A DNA stretch of 40,247 bases. Source: Burkholderiaceae bacterium. GTDB lineage: Bacteria > Pseudomonadota > Gammaproteobacteria > Burkholderiales > Burkholderiaceae_E. The notes beneath the pieces are model-generated. The model saw only the letters and a program-made list of their open reading frames with translations. It did no database searches and was not told the origin of the DNA. Position 1 is the stretch's first letter; the number at the start of each line of letters is the position of its first letter. The position numbers were made by a program, and so were the translations under genes. This document shows positions 15,320 to 33,911 of the stretch, piece by piece. Where the stretch lies: positions 1-40,247 of the forward strand of contig JAHDXY010000007.1 in the NCBI GenBank assembly GCA_023384005.1, given 5' to 3'.

Positions 15320-16450
15320 CTACTGGCCGTACGTCGCGAAGTCGAGCTTCGCGAAGATCTCCTTCTGGTAGAGATCCCCGAGCTTCTTGTAGTCCGCTGG
15401 CATGCCGCTGGTGAGTTTCTCCCACTTGGCGAGAAGTTTCACAAAACGCTCCGCCTTTTGCGGCGCGTTCTTCAGACCGTAGTTCTTCGCGGCGAGTTCG
15501 GCGATGGTCTTCTCGTCCTTCTTAAGGAACTGATCGCTTGCGGCAACGAACTCCTTGGTCGGCTGGTGCAGTGTGACCTTCAACTCGGGCAACCGTCCGC
15601 GGACGTTGTTCGCTGCGATCGTCAGGTTCGTCACGTAGCGCGCGAGCAGGAAGGGCGCGAGATCGAGTACCACCCGGCGAGCCTCCGGCGACATCGTCTT
15701 CCAGTTCTTCGCGCTGAAGTTCATCGATGCCCCGAGATAGACGCCGAGCGGCATGTCGGTCACGTGTTTGACGACATCGGCCAGGCTTTGATCGACGAGG
15801 GAACCGACCGAGTGGGTGTGCGCGTCGAGCACGCCCTGGCTGAGCGCCTGATACGCTTCCGCGGCGGGCATCGCGACCTTTACTCCGCCCATTCCTTCGA
15901 TCCAGCGACCCCATGCGTCGCCGCCGCTTCGGATTTTCAGACCGCGCAAGTCGGCGACGGTCACGACCGGCTTCTTCGTAAGCAGCGAGTACGGCGCGTT
16001 GGCGATGTTGCCGAGGTAGATCTGCCCCTGCTTCTTCATCTCCGCCATGCACTCGTCACAACCGAAGATGTACTCGGTGGCCGCACCCGCCGCTGCGGCG
16101 TTCGACTTCGCAAACAATGAAAAATCGGCGATGAAATTCGCCTCCGGGAACTCTGCCGGATGGTACGGATGCACGATCAGACCCATGTCCGCGACACCGT
16201 CACGCAAGCCGGCAGGGATCTCCTTGACGCTCAACAGCGTCTGCGGGAAGACGCGACCCGTCACCTTGCCGCCGGATTTTTCGCCAAGCCACTTCCCGAA
16301 ATCGACCATCGCCTTCACGCCGTCGTGCTGCGGTCCGTCGCCGGACGCGATCCGAAGTTGCTCGGCCGCGGTCAGCATCGGGATCGTTGCCAGAAGCAGT
16401 CCCGCGCACAATGCAATGGTCCCCGAGACACCCAATCGATTCTCACTCAT
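15320..16450 (-). CDS. TRAP transporter substrate-binding protein (DctP)
   Basis: Signal peptide MSENRLGVSGTIALCAGLLLATIPMLTAAEQ; LRGLKIRSGGDAWGRWIEGMGGVKVAMPAAEAYQALSQGVLDA. Exact start among in-frame ATGs uncertain. Confidence 0.92.
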   Translation of the reverse strand: MSENRLGVSGTIALCAGLLLATIPMLTAAEQLRIASGDGPQHDGVKAMVDFGKWLGEKSGGKVTGRVFPQTLLSVKEIPAGLRDGVADMGLIVHPYHPAEFPEANFIADFSLFAKSNAAAAGAATEYIFGCDECMAEMKKQGQIYLGNIANAPYSLLTKKPVVTVADLRGLKIRSGGDAWGRWIEGMGGVKVAMPAAEAYQALSQGVLDAHTHSVGSLVDQSLADVVKHVTDMPLGVYLGASMNFSAKNWKTMSPEARRVVLDLAPFLLARYVTNLTIAANNVRGRLPELKVTLHQPTKEFVAASDQFLKKDEKTIAELAAKNYGLKNAPQKAERFVKLLAKWEKLTSGMPADYKKLGDLYQKEIFAKLDFATYGQ

Positions 16451-16517
16451 GACGTTCTCCATTTTGGCCAGGTGCACGACTCTCTCGAATCATTCTCGAA
16501 TCTCGGCGAACGGTTCG

Positions 16518-17384
16518 TTACTGCGTGAGCGCGGTTCGCCTGTCCGCACTCGAACAAGGAAATCCGTAGAGCGCGGCAGGGTTGCCCGCAAGAACTCGCT
16601 CCCAGGACTGCTTACCCGTCCACGAATGGAGGAGATCGAGCAGTTGTGCTTCAGAGGGTTTCTCGGCACGGCCCGGGTGCGGCCAGTTGGTTGCCCAAAC
16701 CATGCGCTCGGGCGAATGCCGCAGCAGCGCGCAAGCGAGCGCGGCGACGTCGGCGTATTCGGGGGGACCGGTTCGCGACGTCTCGTACGGTGCTGACAAC
16801 TTGACCCAGACGCGACCAGAGTCGAGCAATCGCAAGAGCGCCTGAAACGACGGATGCCCGGTGTCGACTGGTTCGAGGAACTTCCCGACGTGATCGATGA
16901 CGACCGGACAAGGGAGCGACTCCAGCAAACGGGCTCGTTGCGCAAGCTCGCCGCCGTCGAGTTGAACCTGCATGTGCCAGCCGAGCCCCGCGATGCGCCG
17001 GGCGAGCGGTTCCAGCTCGTCCCACGCGAGCACGCCGCCGGGGAGCATGAACGCACGCGCGCCGCAAACTCCGCTCCTGTCGAGCATCCGAAGTTCGGCG
17101 ATCGGCGTTCGCGGCGCCACGACTGCAACGCCACGGGCACCGGTGCCGATCTGTGCCATGCCTTCGAGCATGCATCGATTGTCGAAACCATAGAGAATCG
17201 ATTGCACGGCCACGACACGCGTGTGTCCCAGGCGCTGCATCAGCTCGCGGTACTCGGCCGCGCTGCCTCGTTGCGCGGCCAGCCCCGCGTCGGCGCGCGG
17301 CACGTACTCTCTCGGGTCGCCATAGAAGTGCACGTGGCAGTCGCAAGCGCCGGCCGGGAGCGCGCGTGCCGTGGTCTCGTTCAT
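16518..17384 (-). CDS. amidohydrolase of COG3618 / PDC hydrolase-sugar lactonase type
   Basis: CDCHVHFYGDPREY, PCPVVIDHVGKFLEP, RMVWATNWPHPG; ATGA overlap with upstream enolase gene. The longer ORF (to 18008) reads through the neighbouring gene. Confidence 0.87.
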   Translation of the reverse strand: MNETTARALPAGACDCHVHFYGDPREYVPRADAGLAAQRGSAAEYRELMQRLGHTRVVAVQSILYGFDNRCMLEGMAQIGTGARGVAVVAPRTPIAELRMLDRSGVCGARAFMLPGGVLAWDELEPLARRIAGLGWHMQVQLDGGELAQRARLLESLPCPVVIDHVGKFLEPVDTGHPSFQALLRLLDSGRVWVKLSAPYETSRTGPPEYADVAALACALLRHSPERMVWATNWPHPGRAEKPSEAQLLDLLHSWTGKQSWERVLAGNPAALYGFPCSSADRRTALTQ

Positions 17385-18631
17385 GCCGACATCCGTTCGG
17401 CGGTCCGTTCGCCGCTCAGACGCAGCCGCGTATCGCTTCGCGCGAACAGGACGGGTGAAAGCTCCGTACCCAAGCCTGGTCGTTCGAGCGGATGAACGAA
17501 CCCCGACTCGATCAACGGCAGCTCGTTGACGATCTGTCGATAGAAACCGTGCGTATGACTGCGTACCGTCTCGGCGATCAGGCCGTTCGGCGCGGCGACC
17601 AACATATGGACGTTCGCGATCAGGGTGACGGGCCCGGTGCAGTCGTGCGGCGCGATGCAACGGTCGAATGCTGCCGCCAGGTGCGTGATCCGCTGACCTT
17701 CGGACAGGCCGCCGATCCAGCCGAGGTCGAAGTGCGCCACGTCGAGCGCGCCACGGGTGAAGACCTCGCGATACCAGGGAACGGTGCCAAGGTTCTCGCT
17801 GCCCGCGACACGACCGCGCACTCGCTCGCGGTAGCGTGCGAGATCGTCGAAATTCTGCATCCCTATCGGCTCTTCGTGCCAATAGATGTCGTGCTCGCGC
17901 AGTGCGTCTGCGATCTTCAGCGCTGCGGGCAAGCGCCACAGGCCGTGGTACTCGATCAGGATGTCGATACGATCGCCGACCGCCGCGCGGATCTGCTCGA
18001 TCGGCCACAATCCGGCCGATAGCTCGCGGGCGCTGATGTCGGCACCCTCGTTGCGCAGCGCGAAGACGTCGAATGGCCAGATCTTCATTGCCGTGATGCC
18101 CTCGGCGAGCAGTTCCTGCGCGAGTTGCGCCGGTTCGTAGACCTGCAGGAGCAGGTCCTCGTAGCGGCCGATAGTGGCGGGCGCGCGCACGTCACGCGAC
18201 ACCAACTCGGTGTTGTAGTTGTGCCGCAGCTTGTTGTTGTATTGCCCACCAGCGCAAGTGTTGTAGATGCGCACTCGATCACGCGTGCGACCGCCAAGCA
18301 GCCGGTATAGCGGCACACCGAGATGCTTGCCGTCGAGGTCCCACAACGCGAGGTCGATCGCCGAGTTTCCGCGTACCTCGACGCTTCGGGTCGGGAATCC
18401 GTTGAAGTGGTTGCCGACCTTCGTCGCGAGTTCGTGCATTCGCGCTTCGCGGCACAACGGGTCCTTGCCTATCAGGTGCGGCGCACAGGTTTCATGCACG
18501 TATGCAACTGTCGCCTCGGGATTGCGGAATGTCTCGCCCAACCCGACCAGGCCTTCGTCAGTGTGCAAGAGGACCCAGACAAGGTTTCCGTACTCCTCGA
18601 CCTGAACGGTTTCGAGCCCGACGATCTTCAT
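17381..18631 (-). CDS. mandelate racemase/muconate lactonizing enzyme (enolase superfamily) protein, sugar-acid dehydratase-like
   Basis: MKIVGLETVQVEEYG...SAIDLALWDLDGKHLGVPLYRLLGG; MKIWPFD; IEYHGLW; YWHEEPI; GSENLG. Confidence 0.9.
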   Translation of the reverse strand: MKIVGLETVQVEEYGNLVWVLLHTDEGLVGLGETFRNPEATVAYVHETCAPHLIGKDPLCREARMHELATKVGNHFNGFPTRSVEVRGNSAIDLALWDLDGKHLGVPLYRLLGGRTRDRVRIYNTCAGGQYNNKLRHNYNTELVSRDVRAPATIGRYEDLLLQVYEPAQLAQELLAEGITAMKIWPFDVFALRNEGADISARELSAGLWPIEQIRAAVGDRIDILIEYHGLWRLPAALKIADALREHDIYWHEEPIGMQNFDDLARYRERVRGRVAGSENLGTVPWYREVFTRGALDVAHFDLGWIGGLSEGQRITHLAAAFDRCIAPHDCTGPVTLIANVHMLVAAPNGLIAETVRSHTHGFYRQIVNELPLIESGFVHPLERPGLGTELSPVLFARSDTRLRLSGERTAERMSA

Positions 18632-18714: not shown

Positions 18715-18939
18715 CCTTATGCGACCGAATCTCGTTGGATCTTGATTTGAGTCATAACTCTCAAGTAACCCTGAATTCGCCCTACGACCGATGCTTTCAG
18801 CGCACTCCCGATAGATCTCATTAATTTTACAACTTTGACCAATTATGCGATTCTTGAGCCGCGCGCCGCGAGCAGGTGGAGCGGCGGATCGCATTCGCAC
18901 CCGAGTCGAATCGAGCGCCCTACTGAAGTGACGAAGACC

Positions 18940-19656
18940 ATGAACCCAAGATCGCCAGCATCGAGGAACGATTCGCCCACCGTCCCCCAAAGGTTGGGCG
19001 ATCAGGTCTACGACGCGTTGGCGGTACAGATTGCCGAGGGTCGCTACCCGGTGGGTAGCCGCTTGCCATCCGAGCTGGATCTCGCGAAGCAATTTGGGGT
19101 GTCGCGACCGGTATTGCGCCAGGCCCTCGCACGCATGCGCTCCGAAGGCCTGGTCGTCGCCCGCCAGGGAGCCGGGAATTTCGTGCGACGCGGGAGCGAA
19201 TCGCAACGGCTGGGTTTCGGACCGCTGCAGAACATCCCGGACGTCCAGCGCTGCCTGGAATTCCGCTGCTGCCTCGAGAGTGAGGCCGCGAGGCGCGCGG
19301 CGATCGCTCACGACGACGAGGCAATCGACAGCATCGCACTCGCGATCAGCGCGATGGAGCGGGCGATCGCCACCGGTAGTTCAGCGGTCGAGGCGGACTA
19401 TGAGTTTCACCTCGCGATCGCGCGCGCAGCGCGCAATCGATTCTTCGTGACAACGCTCGAGGCGTTGAGAGACCAGGTGCAGTTCGGAATCAACCTGTCA
19501 CGCAGTTTCTCTTCGACGCCTATTCATGAACGCCTCGCAAGCGTGCTCGCCGAACACCGGGACATCTACGATGCGATCCGCCGCGGCGATTCGGAACTCG
19601 CCCAACGCGCAGTCAGCCAGCACATCGACGCGGGCATCGCACGGCTGTTCCGTTGA
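18940..19656 (+). CDS. GntR family transcriptional regulator (FadR/FCD type)
   Basis: LGDQVYDALAVQIAEGRYPVGSRLPSELDLAKQFGVSRPVLRQALARMRSEGLVVARQGAGNFV, then FCD-type helical domain (EADYEFHLAIARAARN). Confidence 0.92.
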   Translation: MNPRSPASRNDSPTVPQRLGDQVYDALAVQIAEGRYPVGSRLPSELDLAKQFGVSRPVLRQALARMRSEGLVVARQGAGNFVRRGSESQRLGFGPLQNIPDVQRCLEFRCCLESEAARRAAIAHDDEAIDSIALAISAMERAIATGSSAVEADYEFHLAIARAARNRFFVTTLEALRDQVQFGINLSRSFSSTPIHERLASVLAEHRDIYDAIRRGDSELAQRAVSQHIDAGIARLFR

Positions 19657-20001: not shown

Positions 20002-21675
20002 ATGTTGCGCGAGGACTTGAAACTGGCTGAAGCATCGTGGAGGGGCAACCACGCCGAAGAACTGGCCGAAGCAGCGGCGAGGCCGGCAACATGCGAGGAC
20101 GGGCTGCCGCTCAAGGTGGTCTACACACCGCTCGACATCCAGGACGGAACCAGCGTCAACGCTGCTTTCCCGGGCGAATACCCGTATACCCGCGGCAACG
20201 ACGCGACCGGCTACCGCAAGAAGCTCTGGACGATCAGCCACTACGCGGGGTTCGGCAGCCCGCGCGAAACGAACGTCCTGTTCCGCAAGATGATCGACCA
20301 TGGGGACGTGCCGCCGTACATGGCGCTCGATCTGCCGACGCAGCTCGGCCTGGACCCCGACGACCCGATGGCGCTCGGCGAGGTGGGCCTCACCGGCACG
20401 TCGATCGCGTCGCTGCGCGACTGGGAAACGATCTTCGACGGAATCGATCTCGAGAGCACCTTCGTCGGCACGGTGATCAACGCGCCGGCCGCCGTGATCC
20501 TCGCGATGCACATCGTCCTCGCGCAGAAACAGGGCGCCGACCTCGCCAAGGTACGCGGCAACCTGCAGAACGACATCCTCAAGGAGTTCTCGGCGCGCGG
20601 CAATTTCATCTTCCCGGTCGCGCCGTCGCTGCGGCTCGTTACGGACTCCGTCGAGTACTGCGCTCGCCACCTTCCGTCGTTCTGGCCGCTGAACGTGACA
20701 GGTGGGCACTTCGCCGAGGCTGGCGCGGACCGCGTGCACGAGGTGGCATTCGCCTTCGCGGACGCGTTCACCTACATCGAGCGCCTCCTCGCGCGCGGCG
20801 TGCCGATCGACTCGTTCGCCCGGAACATGTTCTTCCTGATGAAGACAAATCACTTCGACCTGTTCGAAGAAGCGGCGAAGTTTCGCGCGATGCGCAAGAT
20901 CTGGGCGACACGATTGCGCGAGCGTTACGGCGCGCGCGACCCCGAGAGCCTCAAGTGCAAGGTGCTCGGCCACAGCGGCGGCTCGCAGATGACCCGCGAG
21001 CGGCCCGAACTCAACATCGCGCGAACGACGCTGGCGTGCCTCGCTGGCGCATTGGGCGGAATCCAGCTCATCGGGCTGCGCACGATGGACGAGGTGTTCG
21101 GTATCCCGACCGAGAAATCCGAGATGATCGCGATCGGCACCCAGCACGTCGTCGCCCACGAAACGGGCGTCCCCGACGTCGTCGATCCGCTGGGCGGCTC
21201 GTGGTACGTCGAGTCGCTCACCCGAGAGTTCGAAACTCGAGTGCACGCGGAACTGGACCGTATCGATGGCGAAGGCGGCGTAGTCCGCGCGATCGAAACC
21301 GGCTCGATTCGGCGCTCGATCGCGCAGGACGCGTACGAGGCGCAACGCGCTGTCGAGCGCGGCACCAAGGTGAAGGTCGGCGTCAACAAGTACCGCATCG
21401 ACGAGGTCGAACCGCCGCGCCGGCCGTACCAGCTCGATCCCGCCGAGGAAGGCCGCCGCGTGGACGAAGTGCGCGCGGTGCGCCAGCAGCGCGACCAAGC
21501 GGCAGTCGAGACGGCGCTCGCGGAACTGCAGCGCGTGGCACGCCTGCCCGAGGGCAGCGATACCAACCTGATGCCGCCGATCATAGAGGCGGTACGCGCA
21601 TACGCCACGATAGGCGAGATCTGCGGCGCACTGAAGCACGTGTTCGGCGAATACGTCGAACGCGGGCGGGTGTGA
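20002..21675 (+). CDS. B12-dependent acyl-CoA mutase, large (substrate-binding) subunit; methylmalonyl-CoA mutase family, divergent
   Basis: PGEYPYTRGNDATGYRKKLWTISHYAGF, DLPTQLG, LQNDILKEFSARGNFIFPVAPSLR, VDPLGGSWYVESLT; RBS GGAGGGAGC before ATG. Confidence 0.93.
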   Translation: MLREDLKLAEASWRGNHAEELAEAAARPATCEDGLPLKVVYTPLDIQDGTSVNAAFPGEYPYTRGNDATGYRKKLWTISHYAGFGSPRETNVLFRKMIDHGDVPPYMALDLPTQLGLDPDDPMALGEVGLTGTSIASLRDWETIFDGIDLESTFVGTVINAPAAVILAMHIVLAQKQGADLAKVRGNLQNDILKEFSARGNFIFPVAPSLRLVTDSVEYCARHLPSFWPLNVTGGHFAEAGADRVHEVAFAFADAFTYIERLLARGVPIDSFARNMFFLMKTNHFDLFEEAAKFRAMRKIWATRLRERYGARDPESLKCKVLGHSGGSQMTRERPELNIARTTLACLAGALGGIQLIGLRTMDEVFGIPTEKSEMIAIGTQHVVAHETGVPDVVDPLGGSWYVESLTREFETRVHAELDRIDGEGGVVRAIETGSIRRSIAQDAYEAQRAVERGTKVKVGVNKYRIDEVEPPRRPYQLDPAEEGRRVDEVRAVRQQRDQAAVETALAELQRVARLPEGSDTNLMPPIIEAVRAYATIGEICGALKHVFGEYVERGRV

Positions 21676-21680
21676 AGGAC

Positions 21681-22097
21681 ATGACGATGGACAAACGAGT
21701 GCCCCGAATCCTCATGGGCAAGCCTGGCTTGTGCGGCCACGACCGGGGGATCATGCTCGTAATCATGGCGCTGCGCGATGCGGGCATGGAGGTGATCTAC
21801 TCCGGCCGGCACAATTCGCCCGAGCATCTCGTCGACGTTGCCGTGCAGGAGGACGTCGATGTACTTGGTGTCTCGATCCTCTCCGGCGCCCACATGACGC
21901 TGTGCGCGCGGATCGCGAGCCGCCTGAAGGAGCAGGACGCTGCGGATATCGTCCTCCTCGCCGGCGGTTTCATTCCGCCCGAGGACGTCTCGCGCCTGAA
22001 GGCGCTCGGCGTACGCGAGGTGTTCACGGAGGGCGCGAAGCTCGATGACGTGGTGGCCTTCGTTCGCCGCGCGAGCGAGGAACGGACGCCGGCATGA
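21681..22097 (+). CDS. B12-binding small subunit of acyl-CoA mutase
   Basis: RILMGKPGLCGHDRGIMLVIMALRDAGMEVIYSG; EDVDVLGVSILSGAHM; LLAGGFIPPEDV. Reads CGHDRG where DGHDRG is expected. Confidence 0.93.
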   Translation: MTMDKRVPRILMGKPGLCGHDRGIMLVIMALRDAGMEVIYSGRHNSPEHLVDVAVQEDVDVLGVSILSGAHMTLCARIASRLKEQDAADIVLLAGGFIPPEDVSRLKALGVREVFTEGAKLDDVVAFVRRASEERTPA

Positions 22098-23629
22098 ACA
22101 TCTCCGAGTGGCTGGTACGCAATGCCGATCGCGATCCCGACGGCGCCGCGATTCATTTCGAGGGCGACACGATTTCGCACGGCGAACTGCTCGCGCGCGT
22201 CGAGGCGTTCGCCTGCGCGCTCGCAACGTTTGGCGTCCGCCCCGGAGATCGCGTCGGGTTGTTCCTCGAGAACTGCCCGGAGTTCCTGATCGCGCGATGG
22301 GCGGCGATCCGGCTAGGAGCCGCGGCCGCGCCGATGAACGTCATGTTCCAGGCACGCGAGGCGCAGTACGTGCTGAACAACGCGACACCCGGCGTACTCG
22401 TCACCCAGTCCTCGCTGCTGCCGCTTGTCGAGCAGATCTGGCCCGACTGCCCTCACCTCTCGCATCTCGTCGTGTCCGGCGCCGAGATCCACGGTGCGCA
22501 CTCGTTCGCCGCTCTGGAGAGCGCGTACGCGGGGCGAAGCATCGCGCTGCACGACTGTGTCCCGGACGATCTTTGCGACCTGTACTACACCTCTGGCACC
22601 ACCGGACGCCCCAAGGGCGTGATGTGCTCGCACTTCAACTTCGAGAGCCTGCTGCGCTACGAGCAGGTCATATGGGACATGGGCGTGTCCGACCACACCA
22701 TGGTCGCGCTGCCGTTGTTCCACGCGAAGGGCCTCATCATCCCGTGCCTGCTCGCGACCTACGTTGGCTGCCCGCAGACGCTGCTGCGACGTTGGGACAC
22801 GCGCGGCGTGCTGGAGCTGATCGAGCGCAACAAAGTCACCTTCTTCGCCGGCGTGCCGACGATGTACGCCTATCTCAACGCCTTCGACGACGTTGAACGC
22901 TACGATCTGAGCTCGATCCGCATCTGCCGTGTCGGCGGCGCACCGATGCCAGTTGAGATGCACCGCGCGTTCGAAAAGCGCACGGGCGCCGCGATCATCG
23001 AGGGATGGGGTTGCACCGGCTGGACGGGGACGTCGAACCCGCTCGACGGAGAACGGTCGATCGGCTCGATCGGCAAGGCGCTGGGCGAACTGCACCCGTC
23101 GATCCGTTGCGAGATCCGCATCGTCGACGAGACCGGTGAAGACGTGCCCGCCGGCGAGGAAGGCGAGGTCGTCATCCGCGGCGACCAGATCCCCAAGGGC
23201 TTCTGGCGCATGCCGAACAAGACCGCGTCGGACTATCGCGAGGGATGGTTCCACACCGGCGACATCGGTCGCCGCGACGAGCGCGGCTTCATTTACCTCG
23301 TGGGTCGCAAGGACGACCTGATCATCACCTCGGGCTTCAACGTCTACCCGCGCGAAGTCGAGGAGGTTCTGCACGCGCACCCTAGCGTCGCCGACGTCGC
23401 GGTGGTCGGGATGGCCGACGGCGACAAGGGGCAGTCGATCAAGGCCTTCGTCGTGTGCAAGCCCGGAGTGGCCGCGAGCGAGACCGCGCTGGTCGAGTAC
23501 TGCCGCTCGAAACTCGCGAAGTACAAGGCGCCGCGCGCGGTCGAGTTCATCGACGCGCTGCCCAGGACCGCGTCGGGCAAGGTGCAACGGTTCCTGCTCA
23601 CTGGCGGGAACGCCGCACCAAGGAGTTAG
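22094..23629 (+). CDS. AMP-forming acyl-CoA synthetase/ligase
   Basis: YYTSGTTGRPKGVM, GWFHTGDIGRRDERGFIYLVGRKDDLIITSGFNVYPREVE, TASGKVQR; ATGA overlap. Confidence 0.95.
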   Translation: MNISEWLVRNADRDPDGAAIHFEGDTISHGELLARVEAFACALATFGVRPGDRVGLFLENCPEFLIARWAAIRLGAAAAPMNVMFQAREAQYVLNNATPGVLVTQSSLLPLVEQIWPDCPHLSHLVVSGAEIHGAHSFAALESAYAGRSIALHDCVPDDLCDLYYTSGTTGRPKGVMCSHFNFESLLRYEQVIWDMGVSDHTMVALPLFHAKGLIIPCLLATYVGCPQTLLRRWDTRGVLELIERNKVTFFAGVPTMYAYLNAFDDVERYDLSSIRICRVGGAPMPVEMHRAFEKRTGAAIIEGWGCTGWTGTSNPLDGERSIGSIGKALGELHPSIRCEIRIVDETGEDVPAGEEGEVVIRGDQIPKGFWRMPNKTASDYREGWFHTGDIGRRDERGFIYLVGRKDDLIITSGFNVYPREVEEVLHAHPSVADVAVVGMADGDKGQSIKAFVVCKPGVAASETALVEYCRSKLAKYKAPRAVEFIDALPRTASGKVQRFLLTGGNAAPRS

Positions 23630-23630
23630 C

Positions 23631-24806
23631 ATGTACGCGAAGCACCCTCGCCTGTTCCTGACCGAAGAGCAGGACGCGTTGCGCCAGAGCGTCGCGCGGC
23701 TTGCCCGCGAGCGCCTGGCGCCGCGCGCCGCCGAGATCGATGCCACCGCGCAGTATCCGCAGGACGTCTTCGAACTGCTGGTTCAGAACGGACTCACCGG
23801 CATCACGATTCCCGAGGCCTACGGTGGCTCGGGCGCCGGCCTTCTCGAGTTGTGCGTCGCCGTCGAGGAACTCGCAAAGGTCTGCACGACCGCGGCGCTG
23901 ATGCCGGTGTTGTCCAATATCGCCGGCGTCATGCTGTTGCGCTTCGGGAGCGACGAGCAGAAGTCGACGCTGCTGCCGAAACTGGCGCGCGGCGAGCTGC
24001 GCTTCTCGAACGCGCTGACCGAGGCCGACGCAGGGTCCGATGCGGCATCGATACGCAGCGAGGCGACCGCAGTCGGCGACGGATACGAGATCTCCGGCAC
24101 GAAATCCTACATCACCGGCACGACGATCTCTGACATCTTCATCGTGTTCGCGAAGCACGCCGACGGCGCTGCCGCAGGCCGGGTGTCCGCGTTTCTCGTT
24201 CCGCGCGATCGACCGGGAATCACCGTCGGAGCACTCGAGAGGAAGATGGGAATCCGCGGTATGCCGACCGGCGGGGTATTCTTCGACAAGGTCACCGTTC
24301 CCCGCGATGCGCGCCTGGGCGGCGAAGGCCAGGGCCTGTCGGTGCTCTTGAGTTCGATGACCGGAAACCGCCCGGCGATCGGCGCCCGCGGCGTGGGCCT
24401 CGCCCAGGGCGCGTTCGAGATCGCCGTCGATCATTGCCTGAACCGCAAGATGTTCGGCGGCACGCTCATCGATCTTCAGGGCCTGCAGTTCAAACTCGCC
24501 GATCTTGCGATCGCCATCGAGGCCTCGCGCCAACTGGTTCATGCAGGCGCTCGCCTCGTCGACCAGGGCGTGGCGACCAAGGACTTGTCCGGGATGCTCG
24601 CGATGGGCAAGTGCCTGGCCACCGATACGGCAATGAGCGTCACGATCGAGGCCATCCAGTGCCTGGGCGCCACCGGCTACTCGATGGACACGCCGCTCGA
24701 GCGCCTGATGCGCGACGCAAAGCACCTCCAGATTGTCGACGGGTCGAACGAGATACAGCGAGTGCTGATCGCACGCGCGTTGCGGGAGTGGCGCACGAAT
24801 GGGTGA
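23631..24806 (+). CDS. acyl-CoA dehydrogenase
   Basis: LTEADAGSDAASIRSEA, GYEISGTKSYITG, MGIRGMPTGGVFFDKV, LERLMRDAKHLQIVDGSNEIQRVLIAR. Confidence 0.95.
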   Translation: MYAKHPRLFLTEEQDALRQSVARLARERLAPRAAEIDATAQYPQDVFELLVQNGLTGITIPEAYGGSGAGLLELCVAVEELAKVCTTAALMPVLSNIAGVMLLRFGSDEQKSTLLPKLARGELRFSNALTEADAGSDAASIRSEATAVGDGYEISGTKSYITGTTISDIFIVFAKHADGAAAGRVSAFLVPRDRPGITVGALERKMGIRGMPTGGVFFDKVTVPRDARLGGEGQGLSVLLSSMTGNRPAIGARGVGLAQGAFEIAVDHCLNRKMFGGTLIDLQGLQFKLADLAIAIEASRQLVHAGARLVDQGVATKDLSGMLAMGKCLATDTAMSVTIEAIQCLGATGYSMDTPLERLMRDAKHLQIVDGSNEIQRVLIARALREWRTNG

Positions 24807-26190
24807 TCGCAGGCCGGAAACACTGTCGGAATCGCTCTGGCGCGAGGCGAAGGCGTTGCGTTACGACGCGCTCCCCACTCCCGTCGTCGACAAGATCAAG
24901 GACCTGACGCTCGACACGCTCGGCGTCGCGCTCGGATCGGCGTCGCTCGATTTCGGTGTCGCGACGCGCGAGCTCATGCGCTCGTGGAACAGCGCGGGAG
25001 GCGCGAGCGCCATAGGCGAGTCGCGTCGTGCCCCCCCCCACGCCGCAGCGCTGGTCAACGGCGTGCTCGCGCACGGCCAGGACTTCGACGACACGCACAC
25101 CGAGTCGGTTACGCATCCGAGCGCGTGCGTCATCCCGGCCGCACTCGCGGTCGCCGAATCGCGAGGCGCCAGCGGGCGCGACGCGATCGTGACGATGGCT
25201 GCCGGCTTCGAGTCGATGATCCGGCTCGCGCTTCCGGCGCGCAATCAGTTTCACTTGCACGGGTTCCACACAACGTCGATCGCCGGCACTTTTGCCGCCG
25301 CCCTGATCGCGTCGAGGCTCGCCGGGCTGGACGACGGGTCGGCCACGAATGCGCTCGGGGTTTCGGGCAGCTTTACGAGCGGCCTGCTCGAGTGCGTTCC
25401 TGCCGGAGCTGGCTCGAAGCGCCTGCACGCCGGCTGGGCAGCAATGGGCGGGATCATCGCGGCGGATCTCGCCGGCAGAGGATTGACCGGGCCGGACACC
25501 GTGTTTGAAGGCAAGCTCGGCGTGTTCAACTCCTTCGTGCGCGGCGAGTCGATCAACCTGGCGGAGATTCTCGACGGGTTCGGCGTGCACTGGAGCGTGC
25601 TCGATACGCGGCCGAAGCTCTACCCGTGTTGCCACTACCTTCAGTCGTTCATCGACTGCGCACGTCGGCTGCGCGACGAGCGTGGCGTGCGCCCCGCGGA
25701 CATCGCATCGATTCGTTGCCGCGTCGCCCAGGGTTCGGTAAACATGATCTGCACTCCGTGGGCGACCAAGCAGGCGCCTCGCGACACCTACGAGGCCAAG
25801 TTTAGCCTGCCCTTTGCAGTGGCGATCGCGCTCCACGACGGGTGCGCGGGAACGTCCGAGTTCACACTGGAGAACGCGCAACGCCCCGAGATCGCGGCGC
25901 TGATGGCGCGCGTCAACTACGAGGTCGATCCCTCCTTCAGTGTCAAGGACATGCCCGGCGATGTCGAGATCTCGCTCCTCGACGGACGCATCGAGCGTTG
26001 CGTGCAGCAACGCGTGCGCGGAGACCGCGACACTCCGATATCACGCGCCGAGCTTCTCGACAAGTTCCACGACAACGTGCGCGTCACCGCGTTCGCGCAT
26101 CACGCCGATACGATCGCGACGACCGTGCTGAACCTGGACACGCAACGAGATCTCGAAGCGCTGGGCTCCCTGTTGCGCGGCGGAAAGTGA
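24799..26190 (+). CDS. MmgE/PrpD family protein
   Basis: ALVNGVLAHGQDFDDTHTESVTHPSACVIPAALAVAE; KLYPCCHYLQSFIDCA. Confidence 0.93.
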   Translation: MGDRRPETLSESLWREAKALRYDALPTPVVDKIKDLTLDTLGVALGSASLDFGVATRELMRSWNSAGGASAIGESRRAPPHAAALVNGVLAHGQDFDDTHTESVTHPSACVIPAALAVAESRGASGRDAIVTMAAGFESMIRLALPARNQFHLHGFHTTSIAGTFAAALIASRLAGLDDGSATNALGVSGSFTSGLLECVPAGAGSKRLHAGWAAMGGIIAADLAGRGLTGPDTVFEGKLGVFNSFVRGESINLAEILDGFGVHWSVLDTRPKLYPCCHYLQSFIDCARRLRDERGVRPADIASIRCRVAQGSVNMICTPWATKQAPRDTYEAKFSLPFAVAIALHDGCAGTSEFTLENAQRPEIAALMARVNYEVDPSFSVKDMPGDVEISLLDGRIERCVQQRVRGDRDTPISRAELLDKFHDNVRVTAFAHHADTIATTVLNLDTQRDLEALGSLLRGGK

Positions 26191-27434
26191 CTTCGGTTCC
26201 TGGTGCGGGGGCGGGCGCTGCGGCCCCGTCGATCCGAAGCGCTCACGGCGTGCTCGCGGCGACGTTCGCGCTGCATGCCCTGCTGGCGAGCGCCCCCTAC
26301 GGGCTTCCCGCTCTGCTCCCGTTCATTCGCAGCGAACTCGGGGGAGGATACTTCGAGGCAACGCTCGTGTCCTCGGCATTCCTGTTCGGCATCGTCGTGG
26401 GTTCGCCGATCGCTGGCGGCGCAGTCGATGCGTTTGGCATTCGGCGTTCGATCGTTGCCGGCACCGCTCTTGCCACGGCCATGCTCGCATTGGTCCCGAG
26501 CGCACCCTCGCTTTGGCTGGTGTGCATGTACCTCGCGTTGGCCGGAATCGGCTACAGCGTCCTCACGCCCGGGACCAACAGGGCAATGCTGGTGTGGTTC
26601 GCGCAGAGCAACCGGGCAACCGCGGTCGGCGTCAAGCAGACTGGCGTGAGCGTTGGCGGTATCGTCGCTGCGAGCTTCGTACCCGCCGTGTCGCTCGCGT
26701 GGAACTGGCAGGCCTCGTTTCACGTCATCGCGCTCTTCTATGTCGCCGCGCTCTGCGTCGCATCGAACACGTTGCTTGACGGTCCGCCAGGTCGCTCTGG
26801 GCACGCCGCGCGTCCGGCGCTGCGAAGCGTCATCGCGACGATGCTCGGTCACCGCCCGACGATGCTGCTCGCACTCGACGGATTCCTGCGCGTCGGCATC
26901 CAGTACGCATTCCTCACCTTCCTGATCGCATACGCGATCGACAGCCTGCACTCGCCGGTTGCGTGGAGCGCGTTGATCTACGCACTGGCGCACCTGTTCG
27001 GCGCCGCGGGGCGGGTCGGTTGGGGTTGGGCGAGCGATCGCCTGTTCCACGGACGAAGGCGCGGCCCTTACGCGGCCATCGCAGTCACCGCGGCTGTCGG
27101 TTTCACGCTCCTCGCGCTGGCAGCGCCCTTGCATTGGACGATCATGCTTGTTTCGGTCGCGCTGCTGGGTCTTTCTGCCGTCGGTTTCCAGGGCGTCGGC
27201 CTGTCGATGCTGGCAGAGGTGGGGGGCACCCGCGCGGGAGCCGCTTCGGGACTCGTCAACGCGCTGTCGTTCCTCGGCGCGGCGTTGATGGTACCGCTGT
27301 GCGGGCGGTTGCTCGACGCGGGTGCGTCGTTCCCGGCACTGTTCGCAATCCTGGCGGCGTTGTCCGTTCTGACGGCGGGGATCACGCTGGCCTTGCCGGA
27401 TACCCCCTACGAGGTGCCGGAAGATGCCGGCTGA
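26187..27434 (+). CDS. MFS transporter
   Basis: GTG start overlapping upstream stop (GTGA); many TM segments; AGIGYSVLTPGTNRAMLVWFAQSNRATAVGVKQTGVSVGG. Confidence 0.9.
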   Translation: MTSVPGAGAGAAAPSIRSAHGVLAATFALHALLASAPYGLPALLPFIRSELGGGYFEATLVSSAFLFGIVVGSPIAGGAVDAFGIRRSIVAGTALATAMLALVPSAPSLWLVCMYLALAGIGYSVLTPGTNRAMLVWFAQSNRATAVGVKQTGVSVGGIVAASFVPAVSLAWNWQASFHVIALFYVAALCVASNTLLDGPPGRSGHAARPALRSVIATMLGHRPTMLLALDGFLRVGIQYAFLTFLIAYAIDSLHSPVAWSALIYALAHLFGAAGRVGWGWASDRLFHGRRRGPYAAIAVTAAVGFTLLALAAPLHWTIMLVSVALLGLSAVGFQGVGLSMLAEVGGTRAGAASGLVNALSFLGAALMVPLCGRLLDAGASFPALFAILAALSVLTAGITLALPDTPYEVPEDAG

Positions 27435-28452
27435 GGACGCGCGAGCCGTGCGTGCGGACATGGCGGCGACCGAGCGCGTCGCGACCACCGTCGATGGCGT
27501 ACGCGCCGGTCGCGCACGCGCAATCGGTCGTGCGATCAGCGAAGTCGAGAGTGATTCGGACGCTGGGCGCCAGATCGTGGCTGCGTTGGCCGGACACGTG
27601 GGGCGTGCGCACCGCATCGGTTTCACCGGTCCGCCAGGTGCGGGGAAGTCGTCGCTGGTCGGCATGTTGATCGAACGATTCGAACTCCACGGCGATCGCG
27701 TGGGCGTCATCGCGGTCGATCCGTCGAGTCGGGCGACGGGCGGTGCGATTCTCGGCGATCGGGTGCGAATGGAGAATCACGCCGGAGGCGGCGGTACGTT
27801 CATCCGCTCGCTCGGATCACGCGGCGAAACCGGTGGGTTGTCGCTCGCGGCGGCACGCGCCGCCGACGTGCTCGACGCGGCCGGCTACGACCCCATTCTC
27901 CTCGAGACGGTCGGCGCGGGACAGGCCGATCTCGAAGTGAGCGAAGTCGCACATACCAGCGTCGTCGTTCTGCCGCCGGGGCTTGGCGACGAGATACAGG
28001 CCGTCAAGGCCGGAGTGATGGAGATCGCCGACATTTTCGTGGTCAGCAAGTGCGACATCGCGGGCGCCAGCCAGACGCGCGCGGATTTGCTCGCCCTGCT
28101 GCGCCTGCGCGGCCCCGAGGCGACAGGCATACGCGTCATCGGCACGTCTACCGTCGATGGCGAAGGCGTCGAAGCGCTGTTCGAGGCGCTGAACGAGCGC
28201 GCATCGCAGCGCGAGCCCGGCGTTGCCGAGGGCTCGCTCGCACGGCTCGTCGTGCGCCGGGCGCTGCGCACCACCGAGCTCGAACTCGCCGCGTTGCCCC
28301 GGGCCCGATTGCTGGATCTGGGCGCCCGGGTACGACGGGGCGAGATCACACTCGAGCACGCCGCACGAGCGGCTCTCGACGCGGCGCAGGAGCTTGCGAA
28401 ATCACCCGCAATTGCGGCGCGCGGGCGTTCTTCAAGCGCAGCGTCTGACTGA
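27424..28452 (+). CDS. MeaB/ArgK-type GTPase, putative mutase chaperone
   Basis: RIGFTGPPGAGKSSLVGMLIE, VIAVDPSSRATGGAILGDRVRM, ETVGAGQADLEV, PPGLGDEIQAVKAGVMEIADIFVVSKCD. Confidence 0.94.
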   Translation: MPAEDARAVRADMAATERVATTVDGVRAGRARAIGRAISEVESDSDAGRQIVAALAGHVGRAHRIGFTGPPGAGKSSLVGMLIERFELHGDRVGVIAVDPSSRATGGAILGDRVRMENHAGGGGTFIRSLGSRGETGGLSLAAARAADVLDAAGYDPILLETVGAGQADLEVSEVAHTSVVVLPPGLGDEIQAVKAGVMEIADIFVVSKCDIAGASQTRADLLALLRLRGPEATGIRVIGTSTVDGEGVEALFEALNERASQREPGVAEGSLARLVVRRALRTTELELAALPRARLLDLGARVRRGEITLEHAARAALDAAQELAKSPAIAARGRSSSAASD

Positions 28453-28520: not shown

Positions 28521-29510
28521 TCAGGCGGCACCAGCGACGAGTTCCAGCAGCCGGCGGTGCACTGCGGGATCGATCTCGACGTCGCGATCGCCGCCGTCGC
28601 GCCGCGCACGCAGCGAACCATCGCCGGGGACGCGCACGGCGGTGTGTCCGGCGGCCGGACGCGACGCTCGCACCGCTTCGCGCAGGCTCGCCACGCGCTC
28701 CCGAAATGCCGCCGCTGGCATCAGTAGATCGGGCTTGAGCGCCAGGAAAAACATGCCGGAATTGCGGGTCTCGTTGAGCACCGGATCGCTGCCAGCGAGT
28801 ATTCCGAGAATCTGCGCCGCGAACGCCAGGCAGGACCCGCGCGCTCCGCCCCAGGTCAGGAACGCACCTTCGAGCGCAGCCGTCGGGTCGGTGGTGACAC
28901 GGCCCTGTGCATCGACCGCGGTTCCAGCGTCGAGCGAACGCCCGGTCGCCTGGCGAAGCAACACCTCGCCCCAGGTGACGGCGCTGGTACCGATGTCGAG
29001 AACCACGGGATCGCCATCACAGGGAAACGCGAACGCGATCGGATTCGTGCCCAGGATTCGCTCGGCGCCGCCGAACGGGGCGACGCGCGCCGTCGTGTTC
29101 GCGGTGTGCATGGCGATCAATCCGGCGCGGGCGATGCGCTCGACATAGTACGCGAGGCGTCCACTGAACCAGGTGTTGGACGCGCCCACCACGGCGATCC
29201 CCGAGACTTGCGCGATTTCGATCGCCTTGTCGGCCGCGAACAGCGAGACGACGTAGCCATTCACATCTGCACCATCGATCGTGGCAGATATCCCCGTTTG
29301 TCCGGTCAGGCGAATCGGGCCGCCGGGGCCCTTGTTCGCAAGCTGCTCGATGATCGCAGGTACTCGCGCAAGCCCGGCGAAAGCGTGACCCGCGACCATC
29401 GCGTCGATCAGGTGTGCTGCGACCTCCTCGGCGTGCGCGAGAGGCATTGCATGGCGCACGAATGCCGCCACGGCAAGCGCGCGCGCTTCAGCTTGCGACA
29501 GCCTGATCAC
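28521..29510 (-). CDS. malate/L-lactate dehydrogenase (LDH2) family oxidoreductase
   Basis: NTTARVAPFGGAERILGTNPIAFAFP, VVLDIGTSAVTWGEVL, TTDPTAALEGAFLTWGGARG. Confidence 0.88.
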   Translation of the reverse strand: MIRLSQAEARALAVAAFVRHAMPLAHAEEVAAHLIDAMVAGHAFAGLARVPAIIEQLANKGPGGPIRLTGQTGISATIDGADVNGYVVSLFAADKAIEIAQVSGIAVVGASNTWFSGRLAYYVERIARAGLIAMHTANTTARVAPFGGAERILGTNPIAFAFPCDGDPVVLDIGTSAVTWGEVLLRQATGRSLDAGTAVDAQGRVTTDPTAALEGAFLTWGGARGSCLAFAAQILGILAGSDPVLNETRNSGMFFLALKPDLLMPAAAFRERVASLREAVRASRPAAGHTAVRVPGDGSLRARRDGGDRDVEIDPAVHRRLLELVAGAA

Positions 29511-30876
29511 AGTGCGACGCTGCGTTCACCCATCCTTGCGGGCGCGCGGACTCCAGCGCGTCGAGCAGTGGCGCAAGCGACGGCTGGCGTTCGAAATCGA
29601 GGATGAAATCGCGCACGCTGTCGGTGTCCGCGCCGAGCACCGGGCGCGCAAGCTCGTCGTACTTGCGACACAGCACGTCGGTTGCGACCGGGTTCTCCGG
29701 TTCGCCGACCGGGTAGTCGAGCGAGAGCGTGTGCACGCCGGCCCCGGTCTCGATCGAGACGCGCGACGCCCGCTTCGCAGGGTAGTCGGCGTCGAGCGCC
29801 GGATCGTGGCGCACGGCGATCCGTTCCATCAGCGCGCGAACCAGGGGATCCGCTATTCGGCGTTCGGTGAACGCGAATGCGCTCGTTTCTCCATGAACCG
29901 CCGCTACAGCGATCGCGAACGCGATGCTGAACTGCGCCTGCGCCGGCGACTCCGGGCGTTCGATCTCGGCAGCGAGCGTGTACCGGTCGACGTAGACCGA
30001 CACCGCGCGCAAGTCCGCGGCCACCGTGCCGTGCTCCTGCATCAGGGCAAGGAACGCGTCGAGCGGCGCATGATTGCCGCGACACCCCCCGTGCATCTTG
30101 ACGTAGGTCTCGAGTATTCGCGGCACCGAAGGCTCCGTTACCGGGCGCTCCGCATCGGCATACGCTGGGTAGAACCCCTCCGAGAGTATGGCCTCGTGGC
30201 CGCGCGCGCCTGCGGCCGCCATCAACGCCGCGACACGGCCCGATTCGCATCCCTGCGCGACCTGGAGCGGCTGGGTCACAGACTCCCTCAGCGCCGCCTT
30301 GAGCCCGGCGCCCAGGCTCGCCGCGATCGCGAGCGCGTGCATCGTCTGCGTCTCGGACAGGCGCAGCAAACGCGCAGTCGCAGCAGCCGAAGCGATCGGC
30401 GCAAGCACCGCGGTGCTCTGGAAGCCGCGAGCAACGATCGCCGGATACGCGCGTTCTCCCACGCGCAGGAACACGTCGTACCCGAACGCGACCGCCGAAA
30501 GCAGGTCCTCGGGCCGAGGGAGCGCAGCGCGCAGGCTGCTGGCCACGGTGAGCGCCGTAGGGGTGACGACGCAGGAAGGGTGGCCTCCGGTCGAGCGCGA
30601 GCCGTCCTCCATGTACGCCGCGTGCGACATGAACGCATTCAGTCGCAGTGCATCGGAAGTCGCGCGAGCCTGGCCGCTGAACCAGCTTCGCGCGGCCCCG
30701 GCAGCGTCGAGCGCCTGCCCGAGACTTCGCCAGGTGCCGATTCGATACCCCGCGCAGGCACTGCCGATCAGATCGAGAACCCGCATCCGGGTCGCTTCGC
30801 GCACTCTCGCATCCGCCACGCCGCTCGCCGCCGAACACTGCGCGAGTGCGCGGACGTCGATCGCGTCCACCGTCAT
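29488..30876 (-). CDS. MmgE/PrpD family protein
   Basis: MRVLDLIGSACAGYRIGTWRSLGQALDAAG, HPSCVVTPTALTVASSL, GFQSTAVLAPIASAAATARLL. Start set at MTVDAIDVRALAQ (ATGA overlap with TRAP stop). Confidence 0.9.
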   Translation of the reverse strand: MTVDAIDVRALAQCSAASGVADARVREATRMRVLDLIGSACAGYRIGTWRSLGQALDAAGAARSWFSGQARATSDALRLNAFMSHAAYMEDGSRSTGGHPSCVVTPTALTVASSLRAALPRPEDLLSAVAFGYDVFLRVGERAYPAIVARGFQSTAVLAPIASAAATARLLRLSETQTMHALAIAASLGAGLKAALRESVTQPLQVAQGCESGRVAALMAAAGARGHEAILSEGFYPAYADAERPVTEPSVPRILETYVKMHGGCRGNHAPLDAFLALMQEHGTVAADLRAVSVYVDRYTLAAEIERPESPAQAQFSIAFAIAVAAVHGETSAFAFTERRIADPLVRALMERIAVRHDPALDADYPAKRASRVSIETGAGVHTLSLDYPVGEPENPVATDVLCRKYDELARPVLGADTDSVRDFILDFERQPSLAPLLDALESARPQGWVNAASHCDQAVAS

Positions 30877-32828
30877 GGCGCCGCGTGCAGCCGCGTGCGC
30901 CGAAACGCGATCCACTGCCGCCCGAACATCGCGACGAACACGATGACGCCGACCGCGTCGGAATAGTGTCCCGGAAAAGCCATGGCGCAGCCGGCGGCGA
31001 CCAGTACGACACGCTCCCAGATCGCGAGCGGTGCGATCAGGAATCCGATCACGCCGGCACCGTATGGAATCGCCGCCAGGAACAGCATTGCCCACGCGTA
31101 GGCGACCGTGCCGTCGAACCCGTTGGGCATCAGAAGAGGTGTGTAGACGAACATGAACGGCATCAGGTAGAGAAAGGACGAGAATTTCATCGCATGAAAT
31201 CCGGTCCGATACGGGTGCGCTCCCGCAATCCCCGCCCCCGCGAATGCGGACATGCATACCGGCGGCGTTACGTTGGAACTCTGGCTGAACCAGAACACCA
31301 CGAAGTGCGCGGCGATCAACGGCACGCCGAGCTGCCCCAGCGCGGGCACCGCGAGCAGCGCCAGAATCAGGTAGTCCGCAGTTACCGTGATTCCCATGCC
31401 CAGAATGAAGGTCGCGAAAAGCACGAGCAAGAGTGCAAGCCAGACCATCCCGTGGGTCTGCGCCATGACGATCTCGGAGAACCGAAACGCCAACCCGGTG
31501 AGGAGCGCGATGCCGATGATGATGCCAACCGGCCCGGCGGTCACTCCCACGATCAGGGACTTCTCACCTCCATTGGCGAGGCCCGTATACAGGGCGGGGA
31601 GGAAGCGACGCACCTGCCCGGCCATCGCGTAGCGGCTGAACATCAGCGCGACGAAGCTGACGATCGCCCAGAATGCGGCGAACGAGGGCGTGTAGCCTTC
31701 GAACAGCGTAACGAACAACACCGCCAGCGGCAGCAGGTAGAACCAGCCTCCACGCAGAACGGCTGCAATCGCGGGCCTCAGCGACTTTGGCATCGAGCCC
31801 AGACCGGCGCGGCCCGCCTCGAAATGGACCATCATCAGCACGGAGAAGAAGTACAGAATCGCCGGCACGAACGCTATCGTGATGATGTGAGCGTAGGGAA
31901 CCTTGAGCATCTCCGCCATCAGGAATGCGCCCGCACCCATCACCGGCGGCATGAACATGCCCCCAGTCGACGCCGCCGCCTCTATCGCCCCAGCCACTTC
32001 GGACCGGTAGCCCATCTTCTTTATCAACGGAATCGTGAACGTACCTGTAGCGACGGTGTTCGCCACTGCGCTTCCCGAGATCATCCCGAACATCCCGCTC
32101 GCCACGACAGCGGCCTTGGCTGGACCACCCCGAAAGCGTGCAGTCAACGCCACCGGCAGATCGATGAAGAATCGCCCGGCGCCGAACTCCTCGAACAGCG
32201 CACCCATGATGATGAACAGCATCACGTAGGCGATGAAGACGTAGGCGACGAAACCGAAGATGCCGTTGGTCGACGCATAGCTATCGCCGATCACCTGGGC
32301 ATAGCCGTATCCCTGGTGTGCCAGGACACCGCCCGGCAGATGCTGTCCGAGCAGCGCGTAGGCGAGCATGACCAGTGCGAGTATCGGCAGGACCACGCTC
32401 ATCGCACGCCGGCACGCCTCCAACACCAGTGCGATCGCGATCGTCCCGAGAACCAGATCGCGTGTCGTCGCCGCACCGGCGCGCCAGGCCATGTTCTCGT
32501 AGTCGACGATGAAGTTCCCGAACGCCAGCAGCGCGAGCACGATCAGGATCAAGTCCGATGCGCTGGGCCGGTCGCGCGGCGCACCCTTCGTCGCCGGATA
32601 GCGCAGAAAGACGAGCGCGAGAATTGCGAGCAGGAACCCGCCGCGCAGCGTGGCGGTGCCAACGTCGTCGACGAGAACAGCAAGGATCAGGAGCAGGCTA
32701 TAGGTCGCGGCGAGCAGCTTGTACGCGTGTTGCCACCAGCCCTTGAACTCGCGCACCGCACGCGTGCCCTCGGCCTCTTCGAGCAGTTCAAGGAATCGCG
32801 AAGGGCGTGCTCCGGAGGGCGTCGACAT
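30873..32828 (-). CDS. TRAP transporter fused permease (4TM/12TM, TAXI-associated)
   Basis: 651 aa, multiple TM; GAFEAAASTGGMFMPPVMGAGAFLMAE-like (AIEAAASTGGMFMPPVMGAGAFLMAEML). Confidence 0.94.
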   Translation of the reverse strand: MSTPSGARPSRFLELLEEAEGTRAVREFKGWWQHAYKLLAATYSLLLILAVLVDDVGTATLRGGFLLAILALVFLRYPATKGAPRDRPSASDLILIVLALLAFGNFIVDYENMAWRAGAATTRDLVLGTIAIALVLEACRRAMSVVLPILALVMLAYALLGQHLPGGVLAHQGYGYAQVIGDSYASTNGIFGFVAYVFIAYVMLFIIMGALFEEFGAGRFFIDLPVALTARFRGGPAKAAVVASGMFGMISGSAVANTVATGTFTIPLIKKMGYRSEVAGAIEAAASTGGMFMPPVMGAGAFLMAEMLKVPYAHIITIAFVPAILYFFSVLMMVHFEAGRAGLGSMPKSLRPAIAAVLRGGWFYLLPLAVLFVTLFEGYTPSFAAFWAIVSFVALMFSRYAMAGQVRRFLPALYTGLANGGEKSLIVGVTAGPVGIIIGIALLTGLAFRFSEIVMAQTHGMVWLALLLVLFATFILGMGITVTADYLILALLAVPALGQLGVPLIAAHFVVFWFSQSSNVTPPVCMSAFAGAGIAGAHPYRTGFHAMKFSSFLYLMPFMFVYTPLLMPNGFDGTVAYAWAMLFLAAIPYGAGVIGFLIAPLAIWERVVLVAAGCAMAFPGHYSDAVGVIVFVAMFGRQWIAFRRTRLHAAP

Positions 32829-32906
32829 CGGGAATCCTGGGTCTGGCAGCAGAGAGAGCGGCGCTCGGGTCGGACGAGCTTCGCCCGACCCGCGAAGCCC
32901 GGCGCG

Positions 32907-33911
32907 CTACTTCAACGCGGCGGCTGGAACCTTGACCCCGAGCTCGTTCCAGAATTTCGCGGCACCCGGATGCACGGGGCCAATGTTCCCTTCGAGCGGA
33001 TTTGCGCGATTCAGGTTGCTTCCCTTGAAGGCCATGCCGACCTTGCTGATCGCGCCGTCGGAGTAGGCCAGGCGCGTGAACTCGTAGACGATCTCATTCG
33101 GCACGTCTTTGTGCGCGATCAGGAAGCCGGCGTTGCCGAACAACGTAACGTCCTTGTCCTGTCCCTTGTACGTGCCCGCCTTGACGACGACCTTCTGGTA
33201 GAACGGATACTTGTCGAGGAACCTGGAGCGCTCGAGCTCCGGGCCGAAGTCAACCAGGTTGATCGCCCGGCTCGCGGCGACCTCGTCAACAACAGCTGCG
33301 GGCACCGAGCCCAGTCGGCTGAACGCCTGGATCTTGCCGTCGAGGAGCTGCGACGGATAGTCCTGGTGGCCTTCCATGCGGATACGCACGTCGTTCTTCA
33401 TGCCGACATGGTCGAGGAAGAGCGACATCGCCATCGTCGACCCCGAACCCGGAGCACCGATGGCGAAGGTCTGGCCCTTCAGGTCCGACGCGGTATGGAT
33501 GTTGTTCGTTTTCAGCGCGATCACGTGATTGGCCATCGGCGGCGTGACGACGCCGATCACTCGCCAGCTGCGCATCTGCTTGTCGAAGGGCTTTTCACCG
33601 TTCCAGGCCTGCGACATCGTCTCGGGCTGCGTCATGCCGAACTGCGCCTGCCCGGCTTCCACCCGACGGAGGTTCTCGAACCCGCCTCCCGATGTACTGG
33701 GGGAGAGGCGAAGCATCTTCGAGTTCTCGTTGATGAAGTTCGCCAGCGGCGCGGCGATCATGTAATAGGTGCCGGTCACCCCGCCAGTCGTGATCTGCAT
33801 GGCGGTCTGGGCGACTGCCGTAGCGCCCCCCCCGGCGGCGCCGAGTGCGAAAGCTACCCCGACCAGTACACGAGCCGCGCCACGCGCGTTGTCATTGTGC
33901 TTGCAGGTCAT
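32907..33911 (-). CDS. TAXI family TRAP solute-binding protein
   Basis: Signal peptide; QITTGGVTGTYYMIAAPLANFINENSK; TSGGGFENLRRVEAGQAQFGMTQPE. Confidence 0.95.
   Translation of the reverse strand: MTCKHNDNARGAARVLVGVAFALGAAGGGATAVAQTAMQITTGGVTGTYYMIAAPLANFINENSKMLRLSPSTSGGGFENLRRVEAGQAQFGMTQPETMSQAWNGEKPFDKQMRSWRVIGVVTPPMANHVIALKTNNIHTASDLKGQTFAIGAPGSGSTMAMSLFLDHVGMKNDVRIRMEGHQDYPSQLLDGKIQAFSRLGSVPAAVVDEVAASRAINLVDFGPELERSRFLDKYPFYQKVVVKAGTYKGQDKDVTLFGNAGFLIAHKDVPNEIVYEFTRLAYSDGAISKVGMAFKGSNLNRANPLEGNIGPVHPGAAKFWNELGVKVPAAALK

Follow-up and report, generated by a model that had tools for sequence, protein, structure and literature searches.

A candidate new subclass of B12-dependent acyl-CoA mutases encoded with conserved MmgE/PrpD partners in a Burkholderiaceae bacterium

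The window analyzed here, a 40,247-nt stretch from a Burkholderiaceae bacterium (contig JAHDXY010000007.1, assembly GCA_023384005.1), carries at positions 20002–28452 a compact operon encoding the large (mutL) and small (mutS) subunits of an adenosylcobalamin (AdoCbl)-dependent acyl-CoA mutase, an acyl-CoA ligase, an acyl-CoA dehydrogenase, the MmgE/PrpD protein PrpD2, a major facilitator superfamily (MFS) transporter, and a MeaB-like GTPase. As judged from sequence, the mutase is a new subclass, which lies outside every class sampled, namely methylmalonyl-CoA mutase (MCM), 2-hydroxyisobutyryl-CoA mutase (HCM), pivalyl-CoA mutase (PCM), Iaa-type, and isobutyryl-CoA mutase (ICM)-like enzymes, with ethylmalonyl-CoA mutase (ECM) left out. 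With a probability slightly under one-half (about 0.48), we propose that this subclass functions, together with its MeaB, in breaking down a succinic acid substituted at C2/C3 or a similar 1,4-dicarboxylate. All seven genes are intact and co-directional (junctions, in order, of −4 (GTGTGA), −4 (ATGA), +1, −8, −4 (GTGA), and −11 bp), and the Pfam families of all seven products were confirmed (E-values between 6.5e-19 and 8.7e-167); the open reading frames (ORFs), overlaps, and families thus agree exactly with those given in a preliminary description of this DNA.

A maximum-likelihood tree built from 39 sequences places the window mutL and its two orthologs in a clade of their own (support 100/100), which is joined by sister mutases with 50% identity and by L090 in a group supported at 100/99; the MCM, HCM, PCM, and Iaa-type groups are each separate at 100/100. 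The references were human, P. shermanii, and M. tuberculosis enzymes for MCM, 4r3u, PM1, and Xaut_5021 for HCM, and Xaut_5043, which we take to be the pivalyl-CoA mutase, for PCM. The ICM-type clade was labeled by its F89/Q207 residues in a tree without a biochemically characterized ICM, and sequences from plasmid records fetched as possible ECM references clustered with or near MCM. The Iaa-type group, from which Aromatoleum IaaG itself was left out, was recognized by a neighboring dehydrogenase with the GGG motif, the hallmark of IaaF (PMC8360864). Approximately unbiased (AU) tests rejected a single clade of the window group with MCM (p = 9e-5), HCM (p = 3e-41), or Iaa-type sequences (p = 0.0013). 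The window mutase belongs to none of the MCM, HCM, PCM, Iaa-type (IaaGH), and ICM-type clades, and the expectation that its large subunit lies outside the characterized clades holds for these five. It nevertheless has the features of the AdoCbl-dependent acyl-CoA mutase superfamily, i.e., PF01642 and a B12-binding domain, H244/Q197, and the mutase fold.

The closest mutL relatives among the matches listed, with one genome per GTDB species, are ~45% identical. True orthologs were found in 2 of 399 genomes of the same order, G090 (74%) and G134 (72%), which represent one genus in another family of that order. The mutase gave no match at the threshold used in nine other genomes of the window's genus, and the operon is therefore accessory in this genus.

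Numbered as in P. shermanii MCM, with which the mutants Y89F and H244A deposited in the PDB agree, the window mutL retains Y89, Q197, R207, and H244 and is altered at D75, G78, K82, S87, Y114, L117, N195, W236, G243, N283, F285, L287, L328, and H330. Both orthologs have the same pattern except for G283, and it occurs in no other sampled class. In MCM, we take R207 and Y89 to hold the free carboxylate, H244 to be the catalytic His, and positions 82, 87, 283, and 285 to contact CoA. Since R207 is retained here, whereas the ICM, HCM, and PCM types, i.e., monocarboxylyl-CoA mutases, have Q or N at this position, the substrate of the window mutase likely carries a free carboxylate and would be a dicarboxylyl-CoA. 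An AlphaFold model of mutL (pLDDT 78, pTM 0.79; low-confidence around residues 57–77), used for the fold only and not for pocket geometry, matches the HCM and MCM folds (TMq 0.82–0.87).

The cobalamin-binding motif of mutS reads GLCGHDRG, so that Cys (codon TGC in the window) replaces the Asp of DxHxxG to give CxHxxG, and the same is true for L123 and L124. Of 99 entries in a survey of this motif, in which some loci were fetched twice, Asp is present in 90 and Cys in 6, all from these three proteins; the other 3 deviate from the pattern. Although mutS thus lacks the complete DxHxxG, which is the sole sequence motif common to B12 methyltransferases and isomerases (PMC3727330), it keeps the cobalt-ligating His and the Gly, and hence the mutase is still placed in the superfamily.

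What is conserved with this mutase is PrpD2, the second MmgE/PrpD protein PrpD3, and MeaB, not the seven-gene set, for which the preliminary description had proposed a check of conservation. The orthologous loci are ordered mutL-mutS-PrpD1-PrpD2-MeaB, with PrpD3 within ~3 kb; both lack the ligase, dehydrogenase, and MFS genes, and the full set of seven was found in none of >100 mutase-bearing loci. The MmgE/PrpD partner, by contrast, proved as distinctive as had been supposed: among the 399 genomes, those with a PrpD2 match at E ≤ 1e-125 are precisely the three that carry the mutase. For PrpD3, one strong match was obtained among the 95 candidates scored in G090 and one among the 54 in G134; each lies next to the mutase, and the two congeners without the mutase have none. 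The MmgE/PrpD family is greatly expanded in several of the genomes, with 88–95 candidates in three congeners (G090, G041, and G173) and 284 in G321.

All six dicarboxylate/enolate residues (H85, D88, H99, H150, K198, and K266 in IDS-epimerase numbering) are present in PrpD2, whereas PrpD3 retains only H85, H99, and K266 and has lost D88, H150, and K198. The second-base position, Tyr145/Tyr148 in IDS epimerase/methylsuccinate isomerase, is occupied by His in PrpD2 and by Val in PrpD3. One MmgE/PrpD protein is an (S)-(R)-methylsuccinate isomerase, which accepts free acids but no CoA esters and whose gene adjoins that of methylsuccinyl-CoA dehydrogenase; the substrates of all characterized members of the family have a 1,4-dicarboxylate backbone, and the mechanism that these members share probably proceeds through an enolate (PMC12290011). 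A PrpD on a Roseobacter plasmid, located beside a GEG dehydrogenase, CaiB, MaoC, and a CoA-ester lyase, has the residue set of PrpD2. The conserved partners narrow the likely substrate to a 1,4-dicarboxylate-type acid; of the branched or aryl-substituted acid proposed earlier, the aryl option is left without specific support, and the evidence points instead to the 1,4-dicarboxylate backbone. No paper joining MmgE/PrpD with an acyl-CoA mutase was found among the open-access papers searched. MeaB, which belongs to its namesake family, has an intact P-loop, switch I/II, and switch III (DEIQAVKAG, cf. the residues D-x-x-Q-x-x-K; PMC10481361).

Among solved structures, the nearest to the ligase in a PDB search is the malonyl-CoA synthetase MatB, a dicarboxylate ligase, while its scores fall under the cut-off of every NCBIfam model listed. 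The acyl-CoA dehydrogenase has VDG in place of the catalytic motif YEG and does not have the GGG of IaaF; replacement of the motif Tyr has been linked to substrates that are bulky or alpha-substituted, and the motif of cyclohexanecarboxyl-CoA dehydrogenase (GDG) also contains Asp (PMC8360864).

In the proposed route, the acid would be taken up via the MFS transporter or the adjacent TRAP (tripartite ATP-independent periplasmic) system, and PrpD2, with or without PrpD3, would de- and reprotonate the free acid at C2 as a stereo-isomerase or possibly a dehydratase. The ligase would then form the CoA thioester, a step that a CaiB-type CoA-transferase may perform in the relatives lacking the ligase. 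The mutase would interconvert substituted succinyl-CoA and substituted malonyl-CoA, R207/Y89 gripping the free carboxylate and the changes S114Y, N236W, Y243G, and R87S reshaping the pocket to accommodate the substituent; the product would be oxidized by the dehydrogenase, whose small Val and Asp base fit alpha-substituted substrates. The gene content, the intactness of the genes, the clade, the residue pattern, and the conserved partners are observed, whereas all activities, as well as the substrate and the direction of this route, are predictions from sequence. A somewhat more tentative proposal is that the operon performs a B12-dependent 1,2-rearrangement of an acid not known to be the substrate of any mutase, using the reshaped pocket and the CxHxxG site, with the PrpD pair (one member degenerate) preparing the free acid.

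Several observations weigh against the proposed route. The mutase is carried by two independent lineages only (G090 and G134 being congeners), and the CoA-contact positions are changed (R82K, R87S, R283N/G, and S285F), so that the mode of thioester binding is only putative. On plasmid 4 of Variovorax sp. WDL1 (NZ_LR594692.1, L133/L142), PrpD2 and PrpD3 (69% and 71% to L123) occur in tandem in the vicinity of TauD-type dioxygenases and of tricarboxylate receptors; no mutase is annotated within ~20 kb to either side, or in the ~50 kb surrounding them, and hence the pair can serve other routes too. Finally, the absence of the ligase, dehydrogenase, and MFS genes near both orthologs means that the CoA-activation and dehydrogenation steps may be local additions. 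This absence, together with the CaiB-type CoA-transferase and Bug receptors located upstream in L123, is what would be expected if the conserved unit were only mutL-mutS-PrpD2-MeaB (with PrpD3), the other three genes having been inserted for another substrate or merely extending the route. We consider that explanation rather unlikely, as the seven genes are co-directional and tightly packed, and the predicted ligase and dehydrogenase activities suit the same pathway. The changed CoA contacts, along with the Cys in all three small subunits, could also reflect drift of the mutase to non-canonical chemistry, whether without a CoA thioester, with altered cobalamin chemistry, or with catalysis lost; this is very improbable given that H244, Q197, and R207 are kept, the dedicated MeaB is intact, the operon includes a ligase as well as a dehydrogenase for CoA esters, and the identity of 71–73% between families indicates selection for function.

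A variant of ordinary MCM in propionate-type or methylcitrate metabolism, with PrpD acting as 2-methylcitrate dehydratase, would account for the retained Y89/R207 pair and H244, and the PrpD family includes methylcitrate dehydratase. It is nonetheless improbable: the AU test separates the window clade from MCM, ~12 active-site differences are common to all three orthologs, and PrpD2 scores 77 and 29 bits against the NCBIfam 2-methylcitrate dehydratase cut-offs of 950 and 575, respectively; that assignment was dropped. The preliminary description saw the closest logic in the Iaa route; by this analogy, the window enzymes would be a benzylmalonyl/phenylsuccinyl-CoA mutase and an oxidizing decarboxylase for an aryl-substituted acid. 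Iaa operons do also combine a ligase, a dehydrogenase, and a split mutase, R207/Y89 are present in both, and a first tree of 67 rows placed the window clade among 27 loosely resolved rows that include the Iaa clade. The AU test rejected their union, however, and the analogy breaks down for the individual parts: the Iaa-type N114, S or T236, N287, and GGG are opposed to Y114/W236/L287 and VDG in the window, and the genome has its own iaa-type operon, located on a different contig. An aryl route is accordingly very doubtful, and an aryl substrate by analogy with Iaa was abandoned. A self-contained route, as suggested earlier, is doubtful as well because the conserved PrpD3 lies in the opposing operon; overall, the preliminary interpretation is partly supported.

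The substrate classes known for B12 acyl-CoA mutases are few, and each one defined a catabolic route. Here the clade stands apart from every class sampled, its version of the otherwise common cobalamin motif is altered (PMC3727330), and the proposed route for a substituted succinic acid is probably one without prior description.

Other mutases were noted alongside. The sister mutases L125 (G321:C13) and L126 (G090:C37) occur with a ligase and a small subunit and with different partners, named by eye as Asp/Glu-racemase-like, and enoyl-CoA hydratase- and UbiD-like, which suggests a second undescribed subclass. L122 (G693) and L129 (G134:C155) form a further separate lineage with the residue set A243, G328, and V330. 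The draft genome G000 (4.8 Mb, 507 contigs, 90.6% complete, 4.5% contamination), of which the window is contig C93, has nine PF01642 matches (C93, C500, C151, C95, C449, C382, C100, C104, and C405): the window, the PCM-like L001, the iaa-type mutase (C382), the divergent pair L003/L004, the very divergent L132, and three partial matches at contig ends. L132 (G000:C449, 63–1628) is a mutase-family protein that has none of R207, H244, and Q197 where these residues align, and the cobalamin motif of the small subunit beside it likewise does not fit.

The genes of the operon and those adjoining it are listed below; a GntR/FCD gene upstream and a converging minus-strand set (28521–33911) downstream extend the locus beyond the limits given previously. 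The minus-strand region 12178–18631 is another organic-acid catabolic cluster, with another TRAP system, a zinc dehydrogenase, an enolase-superfamily protein, and an amidohydrolase. An Rfam search of the window matched no RNA element, cobalamin riboswitch included, and only weak inverted repeats occur upstream of mutL.

Table 1. Genes of the mutase operon and its surroundings in the window.
Gene product	Position	Strand	Evidence and remarks
GntR/FCD-family regulator, likely local	18835..19656	+	Pfam GntR and FCD; start codon uncertain, TTG ORF perhaps too long
mutL, B12-dependent acyl-CoA mutase large subunit	20002..21675	+	PF01642 8.7e-167; own clade 100/100; active-site table; fold match
mutS, cobalamin-binding small subunit	21672..22097	+	PF02310; motif GLCGHDRG, read from DNA
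Acyl-CoA ligase	22094..23629	+	PF00501 2.3e-80; PDB search
Acyl-CoA dehydrogenase, VDG replacing YEG catalytic motif	23631..24806	+	Pfam; motif alignment
PrpD2, MmgE/PrpD protein	24799..26190	+	Pfam; residue check; co-occurrence with mutase
MFS transporter	26187..27434	+	PF07690 8.2e-37
MeaB-like GTPase chaperone	27424..28452	+	PF03308; TIGR00750 above cut-off; motifs
Ldh_2-family (malate/lactate/sulfolactate type) dehydrogenase, converging on the operon	28521..29510	-	PF02615 5.6e-79
PrpD3, second MmgE/PrpD protein	29488..30876	-	Orthologs adjoin mutase in G090 and G134; residue check
TRAP permease (DctM, fused)	30873..32828	-	PF06808 1e-74
TAXI/NMT1_3-type substrate-binding receptor	32907..33911	-	PF16868 4.2e-59

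Among known systems, the HCM operon of Methylibium PM1 and Xanthobacter Py2 likewise brings together split subunits, a GntR regulator, an acyl-CoA ligase, and MeaB, and HCM is the best structural match of the window mutase model. The earlier statement that the partner set is unusual for known mutases therefore has to be corrected for these shared elements. HCM differs in its clade and in having I89/D116/Q207 instead of Y/A/R, and the HCM regions fetched contain no MmgE/PrpD, acyl-CoA dehydrogenase, or MFS genes. The Iaa operon of the Aromatoleum indoleacetate pathway is similar in its split mutase, ligase, acyl-CoA dehydrogenase, and R207/Y89; it differs in clade and dehydrogenase motif, and Iaa-type loci hold hydantoinase-like genes and gave no match to the window PrpD. 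The iaa-type operon of the window's own genome (L128, G000:C382) comprises a GGG dehydrogenase, a split mutase, a ligase, and hydantoinase-like and thiolase-like genes. MCM has the same fold and Y89/Q197/R207/H244, whereas it forms a separate clade, differs at positions 75, 78, 82, 87, 114, 117, 195, 236, 243, 283, 285, 287, 328, and 330, and lacks the CxHxxG of the window small subunit. The ICM type has F89/Q207 rather than Y89/R207, and the window mutase falls outside the F89/Q207 clade. PCM (Xaut_5043), which also has split subunits with MeaB, is distant in the tree and has L89/N207; the window's genome possesses its own PCM-like copy (L001), 69% identical to Xaut_5043. The itaconate/methylsuccinate cluster of Cupriavidus and Pseudomonas resembles the window in combining an MmgE/PrpD isomerase with an acyl-CoA dehydrogenase for a branched dicarboxylate, but it has no B12 mutase and uses Tyr as the second base where PrpD2 has His (PMC12290011), and the dehydrogenase of the related Roseobacter cluster has GEG in place of the VDG of the window.

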